From: Candidatus Alloenteromonas pullicola
GTDB lineage: Bacteria > Bacillota_I > Bacilli_A > RFN20 > CAG-826
Direction of reading: 5' to 3'
DNA: 32,627 bases
Assembly: GCA_018714785.1 (NCBI GenBank)
Contig: DVMV01000011.1
Location: 1 to 32,627 of the forward strand
The position numbers were made by a program, and so were the translations under genes. The notes beneath the pieces were generated by a model, which ran no database searches, was not told the DNA's origin, and saw nothing but the letters and a program-made list of their open reading frames with translations. The first letter of the stretch is position 1. Every line of letters starts with the position of its first letter. Below, piece after piece: positions 21,799 to 32,627 of the stretch.

Positions 21799-22380
21799 TC
21801 ATTTGCCCTGCCTTATGGCCCCTAGGGGGTATAGCAGGTTCTTGTAGACGATGTCGGCCGCCTTCTGCTCGTCTTCCCCTTTGCCCAAGTCGAAGTAGGC
21901 GTCGAAGAAGCAGAGCAATGAGCCGATGATGCCTGGGATGGGCGATTGGTTGCCGAGCTTGTTGGAGGCCTCGTTGGCTAGGCCGAAGAAGAAGTCCTCG
22001 ACCTCCTTGAAGTGCTTCTGATGGATCGCGGCGACCATCATGAGCCCCTCCTTTCCAAGGGTCTCAAGCTCATCGTAGGGGATGGTCTGCTTCTGCTGGA
22101 CCTCCGCCACGTAGCGGAGGAAGTCGCTTTCCTCCCTGACGACGAAGTTGCGGAAGAAGACGGCCTGATTGTGGGTCATCCCGCCGCTAGAGGCGCCGAC
22201 GGAGATCATCGTGCGCTCCACCACCTGGGCGAGCAAGCGGCAGAAGTTCTTGTCGCTGGAGTCGAACTCGTCCTTCTTTATCGCGGGGTCGATGGCCTTG
22301 AACAGCCCCACCAGCCCCAAGTCGACGGCGGAATAGTAGGAGAAGGCCGACTTCTCAAGCTCCTCGGGGGCAGCCATCAT
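21799..22380 (-). CDS. Unrecognised helical protein, last gene of the hydrogenase operon
   Basis: A 193-aa soluble, mostly alpha-helical protein that I cannot assign to a family. Visible features are a Tyr/Phe-rich start (KSAFSYYSAVDLGLVGLF), a Gly-rich turn SVGASSGGMTHNQAVFFRNFV, DFFFGLANEASNKLG and a hydrophobic stretch PGIIGSLLCFFDAYF. It has no Cys cluster, signal peptide or clear transmembrane helix. A helical-bundle chaperone of the TorD type is conceivable from size and context, but its motifs are not evident. The start overlaps the stop of the [FeFe]-hydrogenase gene (ATGA), so the two are co-translated. That suggests a role in assembly, activity or signalling of that enzyme (inference). 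Confidence 0.75.
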   Translation of the reverse strand: MMAAPEELEKSAFSYYSAVDLGLVGLFKAIDPAIKKDEFDSSDKNFCRLLAQVVERTMISVGASSGGMTHNQAVFFRNFVVREESDFLRYVAEVQQKQTIPYDELETLGKEGLMMVAAIHQKHFKEVEDFFFGLANEASNKLGNQSPIPGIIGSLLCFFDAYFDLGKGEDEQKAADIVYKNLLYPLGAIRQGK

Positions 22381-23834
22381 TCTCCCTTTCTGGTTGAGGC
22401 GATCTTCGGATCGGCCATGGCCGCATTGGCCGCGCCGAGCATAGTGGTCTCCTTCGATTCATGGCCGTATTTGTCGACGTCGGCCGCGTCGCGGACCTCA
22501 TGGGTGAGGCAGCACGGGCCGCCGATGCAGCCGCCCGGGCAGGCCATGCCCTCGATGAAGTTGCCCTGCAGACGGCCGTTCTTGGCTTGGGTGAGGGCCA
22601 TCTTGCACTGGTCTAGGCCGCTCACGGCTACCGGCTTCACCTCGAAGTCGATGTTCTGCTCCTTGAGGGCCTGCCTGACGGCGTCGGACAATCCGCCGCT
22701 GCGGGCGAAGATACGGCCATAGTAGGAGGCATTGTCCAGCGGCTTCTCCTCGAGCTTGGTGAGGTCGATATCGCGGGCATCGATGAGGGCCTGCAGCTCC
22801 TCGAAGGTGATGACGCAGTCGACGTAGGGGGCGGAGTCCTCGCGGAACATCTCCATCTTCTTGGCGATGCAGGGACCGACGAAGACGGTCTTGCCGGTCG
22901 GATCGATGTGCTTGATGTACTTGGCGATCGCGGCCATCGGCGAGAGGTTCTGCGAGACCTTGCCGGCGAGGGTCGGGAAGGCGGTATTGACGTATCTTAC
23001 GAAGGCCGGGCAGCAGCTGGATGTGCAGAAGCCCTCCTCGGAGAGGTCCTTGGCCTCGTTTAGCGCGACTAGGTCGGCGCCCAAGGCAGCCTCAACGACG
23101 TCGGTGAAGCCGAGCGCCTTGATGCCGGTGACGACCTGGCCGAGCTTGGCGTAATGGAACTGGCTCGAGATCGAGGGGGCGACGATCATGTAGGTCTTGT
23201 ACTTGGCTCCGCCCTCCGATTCCTTGATTATGTCGATGCACTTGGTGATGTAGCTCTTGTCCATGATGGCGCCGAAGGGGCAGGCATAGGAGCACTGGCC
23301 GCAGCGGGTGCACTTCTCCTCGTCGATCTCGGAAATCCCGTCCGGGCGGGCGTGGATTGCGCCGATTTTGCAGCTTGCCTCGCAGGGGCGGCGGCGGTTG
23401 ATGATGGCGCCGAACTGGCAGGCCTTCATGCACATGCCGCAGTTGACGCACTTGTTCTTGTCGATGTGGGCGCGCAGGTCATCTCCGAAGCTGATGCAGT
23501 TGAGCCGGCAGGCCTGGGCGCAGCGATGGGCCAGGCAGCCGCGGCAGTCGCTGGTGACGGTGATGCCGCCGAAGGGGCACTCGTCGCAGGCGGCCTCGAT
23601 GACCTCCAGCAGGTTCGGGTTGCTCTTGTCGCCGCCGAGGGCGAGCTTGACGCGGTCGGCCGCGATGGCCCTCTCCTTGTAAACGCAGCAGCGCATGGTG
23701 GCCTTCGGGCCCGGGGCGATGACCTTCGGGATGCCAGCCTTCTTCTCCTCCAGCGTCCCGTCCCAATAGTCCTTCGCGACTTCCTTGAGGACGCGGTATT
23801 TCAGCTGTTGAACCAACGTGTCGAACTTTGTCAT
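22377..23834 (-). CDS. Monomeric [FeFe]-hydrogenase (group B-like)
   Basis: Probably catalytic hydrogenase (485 aa), evolving H2 from reduced ferredoxin. The N-terminal half is rich in Cys. It has a region of Cys at 83, 86, 97, 100, 105, 109 and 113, then ferredoxin-like sets CVNCGMCMKAC (129-139) and CTRCGQCSYAC (175-185). The H-domain contains all three signatures: TSSCCPAF (L1, Cys274/Cys275), VGPCIAKKME (L2, Cys322) and EGMACPGGCIGG (L3, Cys432/Cys436). This supplies four cluster ligands plus the proton-transfer Cys. The GPCIAKK and TSSCCPAF forms fit group B, not the classical CpI type. No HydE, HydF or HydG maturase is in the window. Confidence 0.9.
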   Translation of the reverse strand: MTKFDTLVQQLKYRVLKEVAKDYWDGTLEEKKAGIPKVIAPGPKATMRCCVYKERAIAADRVKLALGGDKSNPNLLEVIEAACDECPFGGITVTSDCRGCLAHRCAQACRLNCISFGDDLRAHIDKNKCVNCGMCMKACQFGAIINRRRPCEASCKIGAIHARPDGISEIDEEKCTRCGQCSYACPFGAIMDKSYITKCIDIIKESEGGAKYKTYMIVAPSISSQFHYAKLGQVVTGIKALGFTDVVEAALGADLVALNEAKDLSEEGFCTSSCCPAFVRYVNTAFPTLAGKVSQNLSPMAAIAKYIKHIDPTGKTVFVGPCIAKKMEMFREDSAPYVDCVITFEELQALIDARDIDLTKLEEKPLDNASYYGRIFARSGGLSDAVRQALKEQNIDFEVKPVAVSGLDQCKMALTQAKNGRLQGNFIEGMACPGGCIGGPCCLTHEVRDAADVDKYGHESKETTMLGAANAAMADPKIASTRKGE

Positions 23835-23846
23835 TGTCTTTTCTCC

Positions 23847-25028
23847 TTAGAAATAGGTCACCTGGATGTGCTTGCCCATGTTGCGAAGCTCTTGGGCTAA
23901 ATTGTCTATGATCTGCATCTTCATCTTGAACCCGATGTGGTATTGGGGGTCCTGATGGGCTGGGTTGACCGCGCAGCCGACGTAGAAGACGATGTCGGTC
24001 GCCTCCTCGAAGAGCATCTTCGCGATCTGGCTCGCCCCATCGCTGCGGAAGCTCCAGTCGAAGTAGGCCTTGTTCTGGCCCTGGTAGTCCTTTGAGAGCT
24101 GGAGCACCTTGTTGAGGGTGATGATCCCCTCGGTAGCGAGGTCCACCCCCTTGATGTAGGAGATGGGCGGGACCTCGGGGTCGAGGTAGTCGAGGCTGCC
24201 CTCGATCGGCGAGCCGAGGTAGCGGGCCGCCAGCGAGCAGGTCGTGCCCCCGCAGACGATGTGGGGGCCGGGCAGGGCGAAGAAGCTGCTTAGCACCTTC
24301 TGGTCGTCCTCCTTGTTGGTGGGCGGGCCGACCATGAGGTTGGCCGTCTTCCGTTCCCGTCTGCGGACGGTCAAGCAGGTGGTGTCGTCCCCCGGGCGCC
24401 TATTATATAGGAGATCGCAGTGGTCGACGAGCAATGTGGCCGTGTTCTTGGCGGAGATGCTCGGGTCGTAAAGCCCCTGCAGGTAGGCACTTATCTCCTC
24501 CCGGGTCCAGCCGAAGTTGAGAGTCTCCCCCACCCCGGCGTAGACCGCCCCGTCGGAGAACATCGACAATGAGTCGTTCACGTCGAAGTAGCATCTGGCT
24601 TTCTTGATTGTCTTGCCTTCGACCGAGAGGGTCTGGTAATCGAGGCGCTTCTCCTGCCCGTTGCGCAAAAACACCGGCTCGGGGTTGTCGAAGTTGTAGA
24701 TGAGGGCCGAGTAGTCGCTTTCGATGCGGCAGACGGTGAAGGTCGAGTAGGCGACGTTGCCCCGGTCGCGGGCGATCGGGAGGGTCTTCACCAGCGTCTC
24801 CACCCCATCCTCGATCGAGAGCCCGGCCTCGGCCATGCGGGAGAGCATGGCGGAGGTGAGGGTCGATAAGATCGAGGCCACGACCCCGGAGCCGAGCCCA
24901 TCGGCCAATACCAAAGTCGTCGACCCGTCGCTTCCTTTGACTATCTGGACGTGGTCGCCGCATAGCTCCTCGCCTTTGTGGTTGACGGAGAGGTAGCCGG
25001 ATTCAAGCTCGGTGTTATCTTTTTCCAT
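23847..25028 (-). CDS. SpoIIE-like PP2C serine phosphatase of the hydrogenase operon
   Basis: A 393-aa cytoplasmic protein. The N-terminal ~225 residues form a PPM/SpoIIE phosphatase: metal-binding Asp25 (CGDHVQI) and Asp43-Gly44 (LADGLGSG), Asp159-Gly160 (MFSDGAVYAG) and Asp214-Asp215 (PGDDTTCL). The C-terminal ~165 residues (MVGPPTNKEDDQKVLSSFF, VCGGTTCSLAARYLG, then DLATEGIITL) form a separate domain that I do not recognise. SpoIIE phosphatases usually dephosphorylate STAS-domain anti-anti-sigma factors, but no STAS protein or RsbW-type kinase is nearby. The gene overlaps the PAS-hydrogenase by 14 bp. This pairing occurs in hfs-type clusters of clostridia, so it probably relays the redox/H2 signal. 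Confidence 0.85.
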   Translation of the reverse strand: MEKDNTELESGYLSVNHKGEELCGDHVQIVKGSDGSTTLVLADGLGSGVVASILSTLTSAMLSRMAEAGLSIEDGVETLVKTLPIARDRGNVAYSTFTVCRIESDYSALIYNFDNPEPVFLRNGQEKRLDYQTLSVEGKTIKKARCYFDVNDSLSMFSDGAVYAGVGETLNFGWTREEISAYLQGLYDPSISAKNTATLLVDHCDLLYNRRPGDDTTCLTVRRRERKTANLMVGPPTNKEDDQKVLSSFFALPGPHIVCGGTTCSLAARYLGSPIEGSLDYLDPEVPPISYIKGVDLATEGIITLNKVLQLSKDYQGQNKAYFDWSFRSDGASQIAKMLFEEATDIVFYVGCAVNPAHQDPQYHIGFKMKMQIIDNLAQELRNMGKHIQVTYF

Positions 25029-26691
25029 TGTCGGGGTCTATCGTCTTCGCCAGGTTGGTGAGGGCGATCTTGGTGTTGGCGGCGCTTTCGCCAAGCAATT
25101 GGGCGATTTCCTGAACGGCCCGTAGGTTCTTTTCGATGACGTCTTTGGTTATCTCGGCGGTCGCCTTGGCGTCGCGGACCTGCTTCTCGTGCTCGAGGTG
25201 GGTCTGGGTCCGGTCGCGGATGGTGCCGATTATGATGTGGTAGCGCTCGTCGTGGATGAGCGAGGCCTCGACGTAGAGGTCGTACTTCTCGAGGTGGATG
25301 TGGCGGTTGCGGATGCTCTCCCCGGATAGGCAGAGGGCGAAAAGCGAGGGATCGAGTATCTCCTCGACGCTTCTGCCGACGCAGGCAGAGGAGCTGACGC
25401 CAAGCAGCTGGCATAGCGATGGGTTGATGAGCTGCACCGTCAGATCGTCGGAGCAGACGATGATGCCGTTCGGCGTGTTCTCGATGATGTCGTTGCCGAA
25501 GCTCGATGCCTTCTCCGATAGATAGGGGAGGCACATCTCCAGCGACGCCTTCCCGTCGAGCACGGCGATGGCCTTCTCGCGGCAGGTGGCGTAGCCGCAG
25601 GAGGAGCAGTTTAGCTCGTCCTTTGGAGAGTATTTGCCAATCGCGTTGAGGACCCGGGTGATCTCCTCCTCGCTATGGCGGCGGGTCCTCTCGGGCCCGG
25701 GATGGAAGTCCTTGCGCAGCGTTTCCGGGTCAGGAGCATCGACGTCGAAGTCCTCCTTGCCCGCCGAGTGGCGGGTGCGCAATAGCGACGCCAGGCTCGG
25801 CCTTCCGCCGAGGGCGGGGCCGTTTAGGCAGGAGCCGCGGCAGGAGCTCATCTCGACGAAGGCGTGGTGGATCTTCCCCTTCTCGATGTCCTCGATGGCG
25901 GAAAGCACCTCATCCATCCCCGAGACGGCCAGGTAGTCGTATTTCTTGGATAGCCGGTCCATCGTGGCGAGGATCCCCCCTTCGGTCGGGAAGAGCCTGG
26001 CCTTGGATTTGGCTAGCGTTATGTCGTCGTCTTGCCCCACCTCGATGCCTTTCTCCTTGAGCATCCGCTTGAGCTCTATGAAGGTGAGGTCCAGGTCGTC
26101 GTATCCGTCGTAGCGGTCGACCTCGTCCTTTTTGGCGATGCAGGGGCCGAGGAAGACGACGGTGCAGCCCGGGTGGGCCTCTTTGATCATCTTGGCGTGG
26201 GCCTGCATCGGCGAGAGCACCGGGGCCAGGAATTTGGCTAGCGAAGGGTGGTGGCGCTCGATGAGCAGGTTGACCGCGTGGCAGCAGGTCGAGATGATGA
26301 CGTCGGAGCTGCTGGAGTCCACCAGGCGGTCGTACTCGCGCTTGACCTGGGTGGCGCCGAGGGCGGTCTCCTCGGCATCGGCGAAGCCTAGCTTGATGAG
26401 GGCTTCGCGCAGTTTCTTGAATGAGGTGGAGGGGAAGGCGCTTAGGTAGCTCGGGGCGACAGAGGCATAGCAGTTGCCGCGCTTGATCAGCTCATAGGCG
26501 GTGTCGGTGTCGTCGCGGATCTTCTTGCACCCCTGGGGGCATACCAAATAGCAGTTGCCGCAGAGGATGCACTCGTCGGCGATGATGCTGGCTTGCCCGT
26601 CCTTGAAGGAGATCGACTTGACCGGGCAGTGCCTGATGCACTTGTAGCAGCTGCGGCAGTCGTTCTCGAGGCTATAAAGCACCTTTTCCAT
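25015..26691 (-). CDS. PAS-domain [FeFe]-hydrogenase-like sensor (group C-like, HydS/HfsB type)
   Basis: Probable sensory hydrogenase (558 aa). Two 4Fe-4S ferredoxin motifs come first (Cys12/15/18/22; Cys41/44/47/51). The H-domain motifs are altered: L1 ISTCCHAV (Cys136/137, with His in place of Pro), L2 LGPCIAKKDE (Cys184) and L3 MSSCRGSCLNGP (Cys284/288). All cluster ligands remain. An extra Fe-S motif (Cys362/365/370/387; NCSSCGYATC) precedes a PAS domain (~400-495; NTPNGIIVCSDD) and a C-terminal helical segment. There is no kinase or other output domain, so the signal must pass to a partner, presumably the overlapping phosphatase. GGAGGG lies 5 nt before the ATG. Confidence 0.87.
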   Translation of the reverse strand: MEKVLYSLENDCRSCYKCIRHCPVKSISFKDGQASIIADECILCGNCYLVCPQGCKKIRDDTDTAYELIKRGNCYASVAPSYLSAFPSTSFKKLREALIKLGFADAEETALGATQVKREYDRLVDSSSSDVIISTCCHAVNLLIERHHPSLAKFLAPVLSPMQAHAKMIKEAHPGCTVVFLGPCIAKKDEVDRYDGYDDLDLTFIELKRMLKEKGIEVGQDDDITLAKSKARLFPTEGGILATMDRLSKKYDYLAVSGMDEVLSAIEDIEKGKIHHAFVEMSSCRGSCLNGPALGGRPSLASLLRTRHSAGKEDFDVDAPDPETLRKDFHPGPERTRRHSEEEITRVLNAIGKYSPKDELNCSSCGYATCREKAIAVLDGKASLEMCLPYLSEKASSFGNDIIENTPNGIIVCSDDLTVQLINPSLCQLLGVSSSACVGRSVEEILDPSLFALCLSGESIRNRHIHLEKYDLYVEASLIHDERYHIIIGTIRDRTQTHLEHEKQVRDAKATAEITKDVIEKNLRAVQEIAQLLGESAANTKIALTNLAKTIDPDNGKR

Positions 26692-26714
26692 TGTTCCCTC
26701 CTAAAACCCAAGAA

Positions 26715-26731
26715 GGGGGCTTTTGGCCCCC
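26715..26731 (-). terminator. Intra-operon GC hairpin, possible attenuator or processing site
   Basis: A 6-bp all-GC stem (GGGGGC/GCCCCC, 26715-26720 with 26726-26731) has a 5-nt loop. It begins 7 nt after the 2Fe-2S protein stop and ends just before the ribosome site of the sensor hydrogenase. The following sequence (TTCTTGGGTTTT) is only partly U-rich, so full termination is unlikely. It may set the ratio of upstream adhE to downstream hydrogenase message. Confidence 0.5.
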
Positions 26732-26737
26732 TGTGGA

Positions 26738-26998
26738 TCACTTGCCTAGAAGCGGCAAGACTTGGTCTTCGAATAGCTTGGAGACGGTCTCCGGCTTGAC
26801 GCCGGGGACGACCTTCTCCCCCACCTTGACGCTGACCCCGTCGTGGCCGCACTGCCCGAGGCAGAAGGCGGCCTTCAGCGTGACCTCATTCTGAAGGCCG
26901 AGGCGGATTATCTCCTCCCTGGCCTTCTCGATGACGTCGCGGGAGCCCTTGAGGTGGCAAGAGCTCCCAACGCAGATAGATAGCTCGACGCTGGCCAT
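26738..26998 (-). CDS. Thioredoxin-like [2Fe-2S] ferredoxin (NuoE/HydC C-terminal type)
   Basis: Small electron-transfer protein (86 aa) equal to the C-terminal half of NuoE. The [2Fe-2S] ligands are Cys9-x4-Cys14 (CVGSSC) and Cys46-x3-Cys50 (CLGQC). It lacks the N-terminal helical part of full NuoE, so it is a stand-alone ferredoxin of the kind found in hfs/hydrogenase gene clusters. The start shares one base with the adhE stop (TAATG). It may pass electrons to or from one of the downstream hydrogenase-type proteins (inference). No NuoF-like NADH-binding partner is in the window. Confidence 0.9.
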   Translation of the reverse strand: MASVELSICVGSSCHLKGSRDVIEKAREEIIRLGLQNEVTLKAAFCLGQCGHDGVSVKVGEKVVPGVKPETVSKLFEDQVLPLLGK

Positions 26999-29658
26999 TA
27001 GTTCCCCTTATAGGCGTCCTTCATGATCTGGATCATGTCCTCGATCATCGGTTCGCGCGGGTTGCACGGGGTGCACTGGTCCTCATAGGCGAGGTAGGCC
27101 AGCTCCTCGAGGTGCGACATGTAGTACTCCTCGTCCGGTATCAAGGACGCGAAGTTCATGTCGATGCCGATCTCCTTGCCGAGGTTCATGACGGCGTCGG
27201 ATAGGGCCTGGGTGGCCTCCTCCGGGGTCTTGGCGGGGAGGTTCAGGACGCGGCAGATGTCGAGGTAGCGCTTGTCGCAGTTGTATTCCTCGTACTTCGG
27301 CCAAACGGAGAGCTTGGTCGGCTGGGTTCCGTTGTACTTGATGACGTGCGGGAGGAGGATGCCGCAGGTCTGGCCGTGGATGGTGTGGTATTCGGCGCCG
27401 ATCTTGTGGGCCATGGAGTGCACGATGCCGAGGAAGGCGTTGGCGAAGGCCATGCCGGCGATGGTGGCGGCGTTGTGCATCTTCTCGCGGGCCTTGAGGT
27501 CGTTTTTGCCGTTATGGACGCAGCGCGGCAGGTAGGTGAAGACCAGCTCGATGGCCTTCAGGGCAAGCCCGTCGGTGTAGTCGCTGGCCATGACCGAGGT
27601 GTAGGCCTCGATGGCGTGGGTGAGGACGTCCATGCCGGTGTAGGCGGTGGAGCGGGCCGGGATGTTGGTGGTGAACTCCGGATCGACGATGGCGATCGAC
27701 GGGGTCAGGGAGTAGTCGGTCAGCGGGTACTTCTTGAGGTTGGCCTTGTCGGAGATGACTGCGAACGGGGTGACCTCAGATCCGGTGCCCGAGGTGGTCG
27801 GGATGCAGATGAGCTTGGTCTTGCGGCCGAGTTCCGGGTACTTGAAAGCCCTCTTGCGGATGTCCATGAACTTCTGCTTGAGGTCGTCGAAGTTGACTTC
27901 GGGGTGCTCGTAGAAGATCCACATGCCCTTCGCGGCATCCATGCAGGATCCGCCGCCGAGGGCGATGATGGTGTCGGGCTGGAACTCAGACATGAGCTCG
28001 CATCCCTTCCTGACGGTGGTGATGTCGGGGTCGGGCTCGACGTCGGCGAACAGCTGGTAGGTGACCTTGTTGCGGCGGGCCATCAGCTCATCGATTATCT
28101 TGTTGAGGAAGCCGAGCTGGACCATCGAGTGGTCGGTGACGATGAAGACCTTGGAGACGTCCTTGGCGCTCTTGAGGTACTGGATGGAATTGCGTTCGAA
28201 ATATATTTTCTGCGGGACCTTGAACCACTGCATGGTGTTCCTCCTTTTGCCGACTCGCTTGATGTTGAGAAGATTCAAAGCCGAGATGTTCCCGGCGACC
28301 GAGTTGTGGCCATACGAGCCACAGCCGAGGGTCAGCGAGGGGATGAAGGAGTTGTAGACGTTGCCGATGCCGCCGAAGGTCGAGGGCGAATTCCAGACGA
28401 TGCGGATGGCCTTGACGATGTCGCCGAAGCGGTCGGACATGGCCTGGTCATGGCAGTGGATGGCCGCGGTGTGGCCGAGGCCGCCGAACTCGAGCATCTT
28501 CTCGCACATGGCGGTGCCTTCGTCGAATCCGGAGACCTTGTAGACCGATAGGACCGGGGAGAGCTTCTCGCGGGAGAGCGGCTCCTCGGGGCCGACCTCG
28601 GTGCAGCAGGCGGCGATGATCTGGCAGCCATCGGGGATGGTGAAGCCGGAGTTCTCGGCGATGCGCTTGGCGCTCATGCCGGCGACGTCGGCGTTGAGCC
28701 TGGCGGCAGCAACGTTCTCGCTGCCCTTGGTGACGCCGAACATGTACTTCTCGAGCATCCTCTTCTCCTCCTCGGAGGCGAAGTAGACGCGGTATTTCTT
28801 GAGCATCGCGACGACGTCATCGTAGACGGCCTCGTCCACGAAGACGGCCGATTCGGAAGCGCAGATCATGCCGTTGTCGAACGACTTGGAGAGGACGACG
28901 TCGTTGACGGTCTGCTCGATGTCGCAGGAGCGGTCGATGTAGCAGGGGACGTTGCCCGCGCCGACGCCGAGGGCCGGCTTGCCGCATGAGTAGGCGGCCT
29001 TGACCATGGAGTTTCCGCCGGTGGCGAGGATGGTGGCGACGCCGGGGTGGTTCATAAGGGCGGAGGTGGCATCCATCGAGGGGTGCTCAATCCACTGGAT
29101 GCAGTTCTCGGGGGCGCCAGCGGCGATGGCGGCATCGCGCATGACGATGGCGGCGGCTTTGGAGCACTGCTGGGCCTTCGGGTGGAAGCCGAAGATGATC
29201 GGGTTGCGGGTCTTGATGGCGATCAAGCTCTTGAAGATGACGGTCGAGGTCGGGTTGGTGACTGGGGTGACGCCGCAGACGACGCCGACCGGCTCAGCGA
29301 TTTCGGTGATGCCGGTGACAGGATCGTCGGAAATGATGCCGACGGTCTTGAGGTGGCGCATGTTGTTGACGATGTACTCGCAGGCGAACAGGTTCTTGGT
29401 GGCCTTGTCCTCAAATACGCCGCGGTGGGTCTCCTCGATGGCTTTGCGGGCGAGGATGCCGTGGTTGTCTAGGCCGGCGACGGACATCTTGGCGACGATG
29501 TAGTCGATCTTCTCCTGATCATAAGAGGCGAAGTCGGCAAGGGCCTTAAGACCCTTTTGGACGAGTTCGTCGACTTCCTTCTCAGCGGCGGCTTTCTTTT
29601 CCTCTGGGGTCAGCTCCGGCGCTGGGGCTTGTTCGGTGGTTTTCTTCGTTGTTGCCAT
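26998..29658 (-). CDS. adhE: Bifunctional acetaldehyde-CoA/alcohol dehydrogenase AdhE
   Basis: Reduces acetyl-CoA to acetaldehyde and then ethanol, using two NADH (886 aa). A short Ala/Pro/Lys/Glu-rich N-terminal tail (~1-25) is followed by the aldehyde dehydrogenase domain with catalytic Cys266 (DNGMICASE) and the NAD-site segment GVGAGNVP. The linker leads to the Fe-dependent alcohol dehydrogenase domain: GGGSCMDAAKGM, and metal-ligand segments DVLTHAIEAY and GIVHSMAHKIGAEYHTIHG. AdhE normally assembles into cytosolic spirosomes. It starts 6 nt after rex; the only good ribosome site (AAGGAGG, inside the rex end) is an unusually long 14 nt away. It heads the structural genes of the operon, where Rex control by the NADH/NAD+ ratio is expected. 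Confidence 0.97.
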   Translation of the reverse strand: MATTKKTTEQAPAPELTPEEKKAAAEKEVDELVQKGLKALADFASYDQEKIDYIVAKMSVAGLDNHGILARKAIEETHRGVFEDKATKNLFACEYIVNNMRHLKTVGIISDDPVTGITEIAEPVGVVCGVTPVTNPTSTVIFKSLIAIKTRNPIIFGFHPKAQQCSKAAAIVMRDAAIAAGAPENCIQWIEHPSMDATSALMNHPGVATILATGGNSMVKAAYSCGKPALGVGAGNVPCYIDRSCDIEQTVNDVVLSKSFDNGMICASESAVFVDEAVYDDVVAMLKKYRVYFASEEEKRMLEKYMFGVTKGSENVAAARLNADVAGMSAKRIAENSGFTIPDGCQIIAACCTEVGPEEPLSREKLSPVLSVYKVSGFDEGTAMCEKMLEFGGLGHTAAIHCHDQAMSDRFGDIVKAIRIVWNSPSTFGGIGNVYNSFIPSLTLGCGSYGHNSVAGNISALNLLNIKRVGKRRNTMQWFKVPQKIYFERNSIQYLKSAKDVSKVFIVTDHSMVQLGFLNKIIDELMARRNKVTYQLFADVEPDPDITTVRKGCELMSEFQPDTIIALGGGSCMDAAKGMWIFYEHPEVNFDDLKQKFMDIRKRAFKYPELGRKTKLICIPTTSGTGSEVTPFAVISDKANLKKYPLTDYSLTPSIAIVDPEFTTNIPARSTAYTGMDVLTHAIEAYTSVMASDYTDGLALKAIELVFTYLPRCVHNGKNDLKAREKMHNAATIAGMAFANAFLGIVHSMAHKIGAEYHTIHGQTCGILLPHVIKYNGTQPTKLSVWPKYEEYNCDKRYLDICRVLNLPAKTPEEATQALSDAVMNLGKEIGIDMNFASLIPDEEYYMSHLEELAYLAYEDQCTPCNPREPMIEDMIQIMKDAYKGN

Positions 29659-29664
29659 AATGTT

Positions 29665-30324
29665 TTACTTTTCCTCCTTGGCAAGGGCGATGTTCAGCCG
29701 GTGCGATAGCACGGCTAGCGATGAGGCGAGATTGACGTTCTCCACGACGATGTCGGGGGGAAGGTCAAGGTGGGCAGGGGCGAAATTCCAGATGGCCTTT
29801 GCCCCGCCGTCGACGGCCAGGAGAGCGACCTCCTGCGCCACTTTGGCCGGGACGGTCAAGATGGCGATGTGGGCATTGAGCCTCGGCAAGATCTCCTTTA
29901 GCATCGATATCGGGAATATCTCTTTCCCGCCGACCCGCTTCCAAAGGAGCGAGGGATCGGAATCGAAGCCGGCCAAGATCTCGAGGCCCATCTCGGAGAA
30001 GGCGGGGAAGTTGAGCAAAGCCGAGCCCAAATGCCCTACGCCTATCAAGATGGCGGAAGTCGAGTCCCTATAGCCCAGGAAGGTCTCGATGTCCTCAATA
30101 AGGAGCTTGATATCCCTACCCTTCTTCGGCCTTCCGGCTTCGGAGGAGACGTTTTGAAGATCCTTGCGGACCTGCTCCTCGCTATAGCCAAGCCGGCCGG
30201 CGATCAGGGGAGATGAGACAATTTCAACGCCGCCCTCATGAAGCTCTTTAAGCAACTTGAGGTAGATTGGGTAGCGTCCCAGTTGATTGAGGGAATATGT
30301 CTTCATGTTCCTTGATAAGGGCAT
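29665..30324 (-). CDS. rex: Redox-sensing transcriptional repressor Rex
   Basis: NADH-responsive repressor (219 aa; 213 if it starts at 30306). The N-terminal winged helix (RYPIYLKLLKEL to EEQVRKDLQNVSS) is followed by a Rossmann domain with GVGHLGSALL (95-104) for NAD(H), and a C-terminal swapped helix. The DNA-contact loop reads SSEAGRPKKGRDI, not the GxxGKRGVGY of the classical Rex, so its operator may differ from TTGTGA/TCACAA. Both start candidates have a purine-rich site only 2 nt away, so the start is uncertain. As the first gene of the adhE-hydrogenase operon it presumably autoregulates. Rex normally leaves DNA when NADH is high. Confidence 0.93.
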   Translation of the reverse strand: MPLSRNMKTYSLNQLGRYPIYLKLLKELHEGGVEIVSSPLIAGRLGYSEEQVRKDLQNVSSEAGRPKKGRDIKLLIEDIETFLGYRDSTSAILIGVGHLGSALLNFPAFSEMGLEILAGFDSDPSLLWKRVGGKEIFPISMLKEILPRLNAHIAILTVPAKVAQEVALLAVDGGAKAIWNFAPAHLDLPPDIVVENVNLASSLAVLSHRLNIALAKEEK

Positions 30325-30330
30325 CGTCCT

Positions 30331-30414
30331 ACCGATACCGAGATTAAGATATTAAAAATATCTACCGCAGTCAACAAAATAAAAGTATTTTTTTACCGAT
30401 ACCGATATACCGAT
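30331..30414 (-). promoter_or_regulatory. Promoter and operator repeats of the rex-adhE-hydrogenase operon
   Basis: A -35 TTGACT (30369-30374) and a -10 TATCTT (30346-30351) are spaced 17 bp on the minus strand. The spacer and -10 are covered by a perfect inverted repeat AGATATT-AAA-AATATCT (30347-30363). Tandem plus-strand hexamers ACCGAT lie on both sides: ACCGAT-ACCGAG at 30331-30342 (at the predicted start of transcription) and three ACCGAT copies at 30395-30400, 30401-30406 and 30409-30414 (upstream of the -35). The repeats are seen directly; which protein binds which is unknown. Confidence 0.65.
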
Positions 30415-30460
30415 TTATTAATTTTTATCCTGCTACGATTATTTATTTTCCGATAGTAAG

Positions 30461-30483
30461 AAAAAAGCACCTTAATGGTGCTT
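30461..30483 (-). terminator. Terminator of the merR-flavoprotein-cupin operon
   Basis: A 7-bp perfect stem (AAGCACC, 30465-30471, with GGTGCTT, 30477-30483) has a 5-nt loop and is followed on the minus strand by TTTTTT. The second base of the stem region overlaps the cupin stop codon. Confidence 0.9.
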
Positions 30484-30898
30484 ATTTTGCTTTTTCGGCT
30501 TCGGCAACGTAGGAAAGGTATTCCTCCTCGTCGACCGGCTCAAGCCAATCGGTGCCTTCGCTTGGAGCAACCTCGACCGAGACGTGGGCGAACCACGAAT
30601 CGGGGTAAGCCCCATGGAAATGCCTGACGTTAGGCGGGATGACGACCACGTCGCCAGGAAGCAATTTGCGGGCCTTCCCTCCATCCTGTTTATATATGCC
30701 GACCCCATCGGTGCATAGCAGGATCTGGCCTCCGCCACGATGGATGTGGAAGTTGTTCCGGCATCCGGGCTCGAAGCTGACGTTGGCCACGCCTTTCCCT
30801 AGCGGATTCAAGAAACTGTCCTTTATGAAATAGGCGGCGTAGGCAGCATTCGGTTCCCCCAATCCATAGAGCGGATTGAACTTATCATCCATCAGCAC
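30482..30898 (-). CDS. Small cupin-domain protein
   Basis: Single-domain cupin of 138 aa. Cupin motif 1 is NNFHIHRGGGQILLCTDG, with metal-ligand candidates His51, His53 and Gln58. Motif 2 is PGDVVVIPPNVRHFHGA, with His93 or His95. The start (NPLYGLGEPN) and the end (SWFAHVSVE) match the cupins often found next to carboxymuconolactone decarboxylases and flavin reductases. The reaction is not known. It overlaps the upstream flavoprotein gene by 7 bp and is the last gene of a MerR-led operon, so it probably takes part in detoxification of reactive electrophiles or quinones (inference). Confidence 0.85.
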   Translation of the reverse strand: MLMDDKFNPLYGLGEPNAAYAAYFIKDSFLNPLGKGVANVSFEPGCRNNFHIHRGGGQILLCTDGVGIYKQDGGKARKLLPGDVVVIPPNVRHFHGAYPDSWFAHVSVEVAPSEGTDWLEPVDEEEYLSYVAEAEKAK

Positions 30899-31437
30899 GA
30901 CCTTCCCATCTCATATGCAGCTTTTGCATATTCGCTGTCCTTCGCCTCGCCTTGGTCGTTGAGCCCAGCGGCGAGTAGATAGCCTTTCTCCTTACAATCC
31001 TCGAGACAATCCCTGGTGTAGCCGCGAATCGACTCTAGGGCGTTATGCAGATGGCTTTTCTCGGGGTCCCAAGCCGTAAGGATTATGTATATATCGGATC
31101 TGATCTTCTCATATATCCCGACTGTCCTGTCGATCAGGCACTTTAGCTGACCGGACATGGAATAGAAATACACCGGGCTGGCGAAGAGGATTACATCGGC
31201 CTTTAAGAGCAAAGGCAGGATATCGTTGACACCATCGTCTTGGATGCAACGCCCGATCTTGGTGCAGGCATAGCAGGCCAGGCATGGCTTTAGGCCCATC
31301 TTACCGATGGATACGGTTTTCACCTCATGCCCCGCTTCCATGGCCCCTTTGGCGAACGAAGATGCCAAAAACGAGGAATTCGAATCCTTCCTTGGGGACG
31401 ATTCTATGATTAGAACCTTCCTCATTATATTTTGCAT
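30892..31437 (-). CDS. NAD(P)H-dependent FMN reductase / iron-sulfur flavoprotein
   Basis: Flavodoxin-fold protein (181 aa; 177 if it starts at 31425). The FMN phosphate loop is SSPRKDSNSSFL; the second flavin loop is ASPVYFYSMSGQLK. A compact Cys motif CLACYACTKIGRC (Cys52, 55, 58, 64; Cx2Cx2Cx5C) matches the 4Fe-4S motif of archaeal-type iron-sulfur flavoproteins, so it may be an O2/H2O2- or quinone-reducing enzyme. The first ATG has GAAGG 3 nt upstream and overlaps merR by 13 bp. The second ATG overlaps the merR stop by one base. Either is possible. Confidence 0.85.
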   Translation of the reverse strand: MQNIMRKVLIIESSPRKDSNSSFLASSFAKGAMEAGHEVKTVSIGKMGLKPCLACYACTKIGRCIQDDGVNDILPLLLKADVILFASPVYFYSMSGQLKCLIDRTVGIYEKIRSDIYIILTAWDPEKSHLHNALESIRGYTRDCLEDCKEKGYLLAAGLNDQGEAKDSEYAKAAYEMGRSC

Positions 31438-31787
31438 TCGCCTTCAATCTCTTCGTAATGAGCAATCTTGTAATCGAGGAGATCCATGGTCTTCTTCAGC
31501 TTCTCCAAAGTATCCTGAAGACGTTTCTTCGATTTTTCCAGGATAGCAAGACGCTCCTCCTCGTTCCCAGGGCCTTGGTCGACCAACGCGAGATACTCCT
31601 TGATATCTTCAAGAGGTATACCGGAATCCTTGAAACAGATAATAACTCTCAATCGATCAATGTCCTCGTCGCAGTAATCGCGAATCCCCGAGGAAGACCG
31701 ATGTGGTTTGAATAGCCCGATTTTTTCATAAAAACGGAGCGTATCGCGAGTTAGTCCTACCCGTTTTGCAAGTTCTCCAATCTTCAT
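31425..31787 (-). CDS. MerR-family transcriptional regulator (AdhR/NmlR-like)
   Basis: A 120-aa regulator. The N-terminal winged helix (MKIGELAKRVGLTRDTLRFYEKIGLFKP, then the RDYCDEDIDRLRVI wing) is followed by a dimerising coiled coil (~75-110) and a short tail ending GECKI. The AdhR/NmlR group responds to aldehydes or thiol-reactive electrophiles. The single Cys near the C-terminus and Cys51 in the first domain are the only candidate sensor thiols. It leads the operon with the flavoprotein and cupin, whose promoter has the long spacer and dyad typical of MerR control. Confidence 0.9.
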   Translation of the reverse strand: MKIGELAKRVGLTRDTLRFYEKIGLFKPHRSSSGIRDYCDEDIDRLRVIICFKDSGIPLEDIKEYLALVDQGPGNEEERLAILEKSKKRLQDTLEKLKKTMDLLDYKIAHYEEIEGECKI

Positions 31788-31843: not shown

Positions 31844-32627
31844 TTAGCCTAAGGCAATTTCCAAGGCCATCATGACGACAAAGCCAATGATGAAGCTCCA
31901 GAGGCCAAAATGCTCGTGTTTGCTTATCGACCCAGGAATCAACTCGTCGACAGTCGCGTAGATCATTGCCCCGGCCGCAAAAGAGAGCAAAAAGGGCAAC
32001 GCGGAGGAGAAAGCGGCGCCTATTGCGCAGGCAATAATGCCAAATAAAGGTTCTGGGAGGCCGCTACTAGCGCCAAACGCAAACGCTTTGCCACGGCTGT
32101 ACCCTTCGTCTAAAAGAGGAAGCGAGGCGGCAGCGCCCTCAGGAATATTCTGAATGGAGATGCCTAGAGCCAGGGTAATGGCCGCCAAGGCGATAGGCCA
32201 TTGATCCGGAGAAGCGAAGTAAATTCCACACGCCAAACCGACAGCAATACCCTCGGGTATATTATGCAAGGTTACGGCTAAGAACAATTTGGTGGATGGT
32301 TTCACCCCACTGGTTTCCGGACCTTCTTTCCTTCCATCCGGATGCATATGGGGTATCAGCTTATCCAAGGCAAACAGAAGTAGACATCCAGCCAAGAAGG
32401 AACCGCAAACAACCAGCAAAGAATAATTCCCAAAAGTCGAAGAGGCTTGTTCCATGGATGGAAGCAAAAGACCAAAGACGGCAGAGGACACCATTACCCC
32501 ACCGCTGAATCCCAAAACGATTGAAGAAATCTTTGGGCCAAGCGACTTTTTGAAAAACAAAGTGAATGAAGCCCCTATGACCGTAGAAGCGAAGATAAGC
32601 CCAAGACAAATGAAACTAAGTAAATAT
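31844..32627 (-). CDS. ZIP-family divalent metal transporter, 5' end outside the window
   Basis: Metal permease (Zn/Fe/Mn) of the GufA/ZupT type, at least 260 aa. The frame is open with no stop to the right edge, and the residues before position 32560 (LLSFICLGLIFASTVIGASF) form a normal first ZIP helix. The true start is therefore beyond the window, and the TTG at 32558-32560 is not the start. Metal-site motifs are TLHNIPEGIAVG (helix 4) and SIQNIPEGAAASLPLL (helix 5, with Gln for His, as in this subfamily). The His-containing loop is PHMHPDG. The stop is 57 nt before merR; no terminator is seen between them. Confidence 0.9.
   Translation of the reverse strand, partial: YLLSFICLGLIFASTVIGASFTLFFKKSLGPKISSIVLGFSGGVMVSSAVFGLLLPSMEQASSTFGNYSLLVVCGSFLAGCLLLFALDKLIPHMHPDGRKEGPETSGVKPSTKLFLAVTLHNIPEGIAVGLACGIYFASPDQWPIALAAITLALGISIQNIPEGAAASLPLLDEGYSRGKAFAFGASSGLPEPLFGIIACAIGAAFSSALPFLLSFAAGAMIYATVDELIPGSISKHEHFGLWSFIIGFVVMMALEIALG

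Follow-up and report, generated by a model that had tools for sequence, protein, structure and literature searches.

The ACCGAT arrays that flank the rex promoter of Candidatus Alloenteromonas pullicola very probably constitute a variant operator of the redox-sensing repressor Rex, bound by the NAD+ form of the protein and repressing rex-adhE. An operator that is specific to the lineage and read by Rex itself is the most likely reading of the sequence comparisons. Support for it comes from conserved palindromes at rex promoters and from where they lie with respect to the predicted promoter elements, from similar sites at other redox genes, and from covariation with the Rex recognition helix. 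No paper describing the motif was found in a literature search that lacked the original comparative analysis of Rex regulons, where an earlier mention is possible.

Genomic Setting of the rex Locus

The window, meaning the whole stretch of 32,627 nucleotides that was analyzed, forms contig 6 of a genome of 1.05 Mb assembled in 41 contigs, the near relatives of which are uncultured gut Bacilli. On the minus strand, rex is followed first by adhE and then by a block of [FeFe]-hydrogenase-type genes.

29665..30306, minus strand: rex, redox-sensing repressor (NF003994, Pfam, solved Rex relatives; the ORF reaches 30324)
26998..29658, minus strand: adhE, bifunctional aldehyde/alcohol dehydrogenase, next in the operon after rex (Pfam)
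21799..26691, minus strand: [FeFe]-hydrogenase-type genes including PAS and SpoIIE-phosphatase members, downstream and co-directional (Pfam)
30465..30483, minus strand: terminator-like hairpin between the rex promoter and the upstream cupin gene (sequence)

Relatives retain both the rex-adhE gene order and the order of the hydrogenase block behind it. The block behind adhE (21799-26997, minus strand), likewise conserved behind rex-adhE in relatives, resembles a sensory-hydrogenase cassette with a PAS [FeFe]-hydrogenase-like protein, a SpoIIE-type phosphatase, a second hydrogenase, and a 193-aa protein. The gap between adhE and the hydrogenase genes (26692-26997) encodes a small thioredoxin-like ferredoxin-type protein, assigned by eye, and a matrix scan of the window found no operator there. 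Upstream of rex lies a ZIP metal transporter gene (31844-32560, minus strand), with cupin, FMN-reductase-like, and MerR genes in between (30482-31787, minus strand). In several relatives (L006, L013, L014, L015) a ZIP gene is the immediate upstream neighbor of rex, and no cupin homologue was found near rex in relatives with this adjacency. No relatives were found in viral contigs.

Architecture of the rex Promoter

The features discussed below are listed in order of position.

30320..30342, minus strand: putative downstream operator array CTCGGTATCGGTAGGACGATGCC, at the predicted transcription start
30331-30336 and 30337-30342, plus strand: ACCGAT/ACCGAG units
30346..30351, minus strand: predicted -10 element TATCTT of the rex promoter, 17-nt spacer (sequence)
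30347..30363, no strand: inverted repeat AGATATTAAAAATATCT in the promoter spacer, judged a chance dyad
30369..30374, minus strand: predicted -35 element of the rex promoter, TTGACT, of which 5 of 6 aligned relatives keep TTGAC
30380..30401, minus strand: putative upstream operator, palindrome TATCGGTAAAAAAATACTTTTA, with a strong left half and a weak but conserved right half (TACTT)
30394..30415, minus strand: overlapping half-site array ATCGGTATATCGGTATCGGTA, steps 8 + 6 = 14 bp, 9.7 bits
30395-30400, 30401-30406, and 30409-30414, plus strand: ACCGAT units

All five hexamers lie where the first-pass annotation had placed them, two at the predicted start and three upstream of the -35; the arrays, described there as about 65 bp apart, begin 64 bp apart. 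ACCGAK occurs five times in 30325-30420, a count reached by 0 of 2000 shuffles (mean 0.31, maximum 3). The window contains ACCGATACCGA twice (0.02 expected), both copies lying in the rex promoter, and the 1.05-Mb genome has no further copy; ACCGATACCGAK is found genome-wide only at the same two places. These units are genuine and conserved, and their clustering is not random. Each is a half-site of a larger palindrome and not an independent tandem repeat, the tandem look arising because overlapping sites share a half-site, as exemplified by the array ATCGGT-AT-ATCGGT-ATCGGT (8 + 6).

The palindrome at 30380-30401 has the top matrix score in the window (17.0 bits; next independent score 9.1), which was reached by 1 of 2000 shuffles, and has one half-site in common with the array at 30394-30415. 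One array precedes the -35 and the other covers the predicted start, at the same place as a second palindrome in other genera. As palindromes, the sites in the window are weaker, each with one good and one degenerate half. An alignment of the window with six relatives shows conservation of the upstream array (..CGGTA....TATCGGTAAA...TACTT), whose TATCGGTAAA..TACTT part is kept in all 6 relatives, and of the -35 TTGAC; a third block, CGGTATCGGTAGGACGATGCC at the predicted start, is identical in the four nearest relatives. Translation of rex likely starts at the ATG ending at 30306, with AAGGAA in front, in preference to the ATG at 30324, because the latter falls within the conserved operator block GACGATGCC.

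Conservation in close relatives extends to the hexamer arrays but not to the inverted repeat between them. The perfect 17-bp dyad reported in the spacer, AGATATT-AAA-AATATCT, does occur at 30347-30363, but it is absent from the four closest relatives, in which the promoter alignment shows a diverged spacer, and an equally good dyad arose in 404 of 2000 shuffles (20%) of the 157-bp AT-rich intergenic stretch. By these comparisons the repeat is a product of chance. It was rejected as a second operator, and the idea that two different regulators act here is not supported.

A genome-wide search for further ACCGAT arrays found the double unit nowhere beyond the rex promoter. No other operators were identified in the source genome, as sites with up to two mismatches (dxs, ackA, an ABC permease) fall within coding genes or at their ends. 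Plain genome-wide counts at two mismatches were not above the reversed control, and the evidence is therefore one of position, not of count.

A Conserved Palindrome Upstream of rex in the Family

Genes for Rex were gathered from 120 of the 220 genomes of the taxonomic family, yielding upstream DNA for 119 loci, of which 105 non-redundant regions were used for motif statistics. Motif discovery upstream of rex in relatives, as proposed in the first-pass annotation, recovered a conserved palindrome in one register. An unbiased count of inverted dyads found GGTA-N6-TACC in 36 of the 105 regions (shuffles 0.11), CGGT-N8-ACCG in 25 (shuffles 0.04), and TCGG-N10-CCGA in 22 (shuffles 0.11), all three sharing the register of the palindromic matrix consensus WWTCRGTAWW|WWTACYGAWW, an 18-20 bp palindrome with an N4 spacer and an AA/TT core. 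The best site scored at least 16 bits in 78 of 105 regions (shuffles 0.1) with a matrix trained on the same loci that it scores; because of this fitting, the dyad count, which involves none, is the cleaner test. A clear site is missing in about 17-20% of the family's rex upstream regions.

Many promoters in the family carry two sites, most commonly 47 bp apart; half-site pairs at this distance, bracketing the core promoter, occur in 19 of 105 regions (shuffles 0.1). Direct half-site spacings of 8 bp (14/105; shuffle mean 0.1) and 14 bp (9/105; shuffle mean 0.0) are as would be seen when neighboring operators share a half-site. The reported lack of a classical Rex box holds across the family, with neither TTGTGAA-N4-TTCACAA nor TTGTTAA-N4-TTAACAA found at up to 2 mismatches in any of the 105 regions. 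The variant motif accompanies rex across some 20 genera and is conserved down to about 50% Rex identity.

Sites also occur at other genes. Among 224 family genomes, exact matches to TCRGTAANNNNTTACYGA number 14, nine of them directly before rex and one before adhE without rex. With a stricter pattern, 23 sites were found and none for the reversed control. Of the 23, 15 are at rex, and the others include sites before gapA-pgk and ppdK and, in two genera, before the same FAD-oxidoreductase gene (gene names assigned by eye from translations). The latter is a candidate new Rex target.

The Rex Protein and Covariation with the Upstream Site

The Rex encoded in the window scores 231 bits against NF003994 (cut-off 130) and contains PF06971 (Put_DNA-bind_N) and PF02629 (CoA_binding). 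NF003994 also matches B. subtilis Rex and was discarded as too broad a marker of the variant. The Rossmann NAD(H) site GxGxxG is present (ILIGVGHLGSAL in the translation), as is the basic pair of helix 3, where the Arg and Lys of QVRKDL align to Arg50 and Arg51. Compared with the S. agalactiae structure 3KET (PMC8376106), the winged helix is shared and Arg50 is kept, whereas Ala47 is replaced by Glu, Arg62 by Pro, and Tyr66 by Arg, with a one-residue insertion before the wing. In the numbering of the 219-aa ORF, the Glu aligned to Ala47 is residue 50. The variant recognition helix and wing read EEQVRKDLQNVSSEAGRPKKGRD, and the classical wing (YFG-GxRGxGY) is not found in the window Rex, which has QNVSSEAGRPKKGRD instead. 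Membership of the Rex family stands despite the wing because the curated models do not require a wing type. The description of the DNA-contact loop as non-classical is well supported.

Ala47 of S. agalactiae Rex makes contact with bases 6 and 16 in the structure of the DNA complex, where Arg50/Arg51 recognize G5/G7 (PMC8376106). In the window's clade the residue aligned to Ala47 is Glu. Among clear-site loci, 71 of the 73 with Glu at 47 have G at half-site position 6 (TCRGTA), compared with no G there in 9 of 11 with Ile/Met/Val (TCGATA), counts that are not corrected for shared ancestry. Ile/Met/Val at 47 occurs in two genera of the family and in other families. Every change at 47 is accompanied by Arg in place of Tyr/Phe at residue 66 of the wing, so the residue that sets specificity is not isolated. 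The motif follows the recognition helix of the Rex encoded next to it and is thus most simply Rex's own operator. A new Rex operator type, one of two options raised initially, is well supported by the conserved palindrome, the absent classical boxes, the sites at redox genes, and the helix covariation.

The known operator ROP, TTGTGAA-N4-TTCACAA, is found in S. aureus, S. agalactiae, and Streptomyces (PMC2883068, PMC8376106). Like ROP, the family consensus is an 18-bp N4-centered palindrome with an AA/TT core, near the -35/-10 and preceding rex and adhE, the window's halves being partly degenerate. It differs in its half-site (TCRGTAA versus TTGTGAA), in its frequent overlapping sites with a shared half-site, and in its two arrays flanking the promoter. 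The Clostridiaceae motif TTGTTAA-N4-TTAACAA, whose targets include adhE, gap, and hydrogenases (PMC8457756, citing Ravcheev 2012), has the same length, spacer, and TAA/TTA core. Relative to that motif, the family has C in place of T at half-site base 2, while base 4 (structure position 6) is G with an E-type Rex and A with an I/M/V-type. We lean slightly toward a scenario in which this branch of Rex switched its DNA code from TTGTGAA to TCGATA to TCRGTA via helix-3 residue 47 and the rebuilt wing, and binds half-site-sharing operator chains on both sides of the promoter.

Proposed Regulation and Alternative Explanations

In the Rex family, the NAD+ form binds and represses, and NADH releases it (PMC8376106, PMC8457756). 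We infer binding, repression, and the NADH response from the family, and infer the operon extent as well. NAD+-state Rex dimers would bind one array just upstream of the -35 and another over the transcription start, an arrangement that suggests occlusion from both sides. Bound Rex would block RNA polymerase and thereby keep rex-adhE, and probably the downstream hydrogenase genes too, repressed. A rise in NADH/NAD+ would then release Rex, turning on ethanol and hydrogen formation and re-oxidizing NADH. As in Clostridia, the predicted target genes, adhE and hydrogenase, are ones whose products use NADH or reduced ferredoxin.

It is improbable that a regulator other than Rex controls rex-adhE through the ACCGAT arrays, perhaps alongside a second one that binds the spacer dyad. 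The motif is unlike classical Rex boxes and in its own genome is present at the rex promoter only, but it tracks rex over some 20 genera, recurs at adhE, gapA, and the FAD oxidoreductase, and varies with the Rex recognition helix, and the dyad is not conserved. Still less credible is a downstream array that acts mainly as an RNA or 5′-UTR element and not as a DNA operator: five species keep CGGTATCGGTAGGACGATGCC unchanged at or after the predicted start, yet the locus has no Rfam match and other genera hold an upstream-like DNA-type palindrome at the same place. That the hexamers, short and tandem as they are, could be neutral simple repeats without function is refuted by their conservation down to about 50% Rex identity and by the shuffles, none of which reached their count.

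Rex regulons have been predicted by scanning for classical boxes, and such a scan would find nothing in these uncultured gut Bacilli. With the variant Rex operator, NADH/NAD+ control of ethanol and hydrogen formation would become predictable for over 100 genomes, and the series of variants offers a natural set for residue-by-residue tests of specificity change in a transcription factor.

Two further observations concern individual loci. Near-perfect variant operators lie upstream of the FAD-dependent oxidoreductase genes at L237 2513-3973 and L238 2328-3592. In other families of the class (L194, L195, L197, L266), a Val-47 Rex occurs with TATCGATA-N6-TATCGATA-like upstream sites, a further operator variant.
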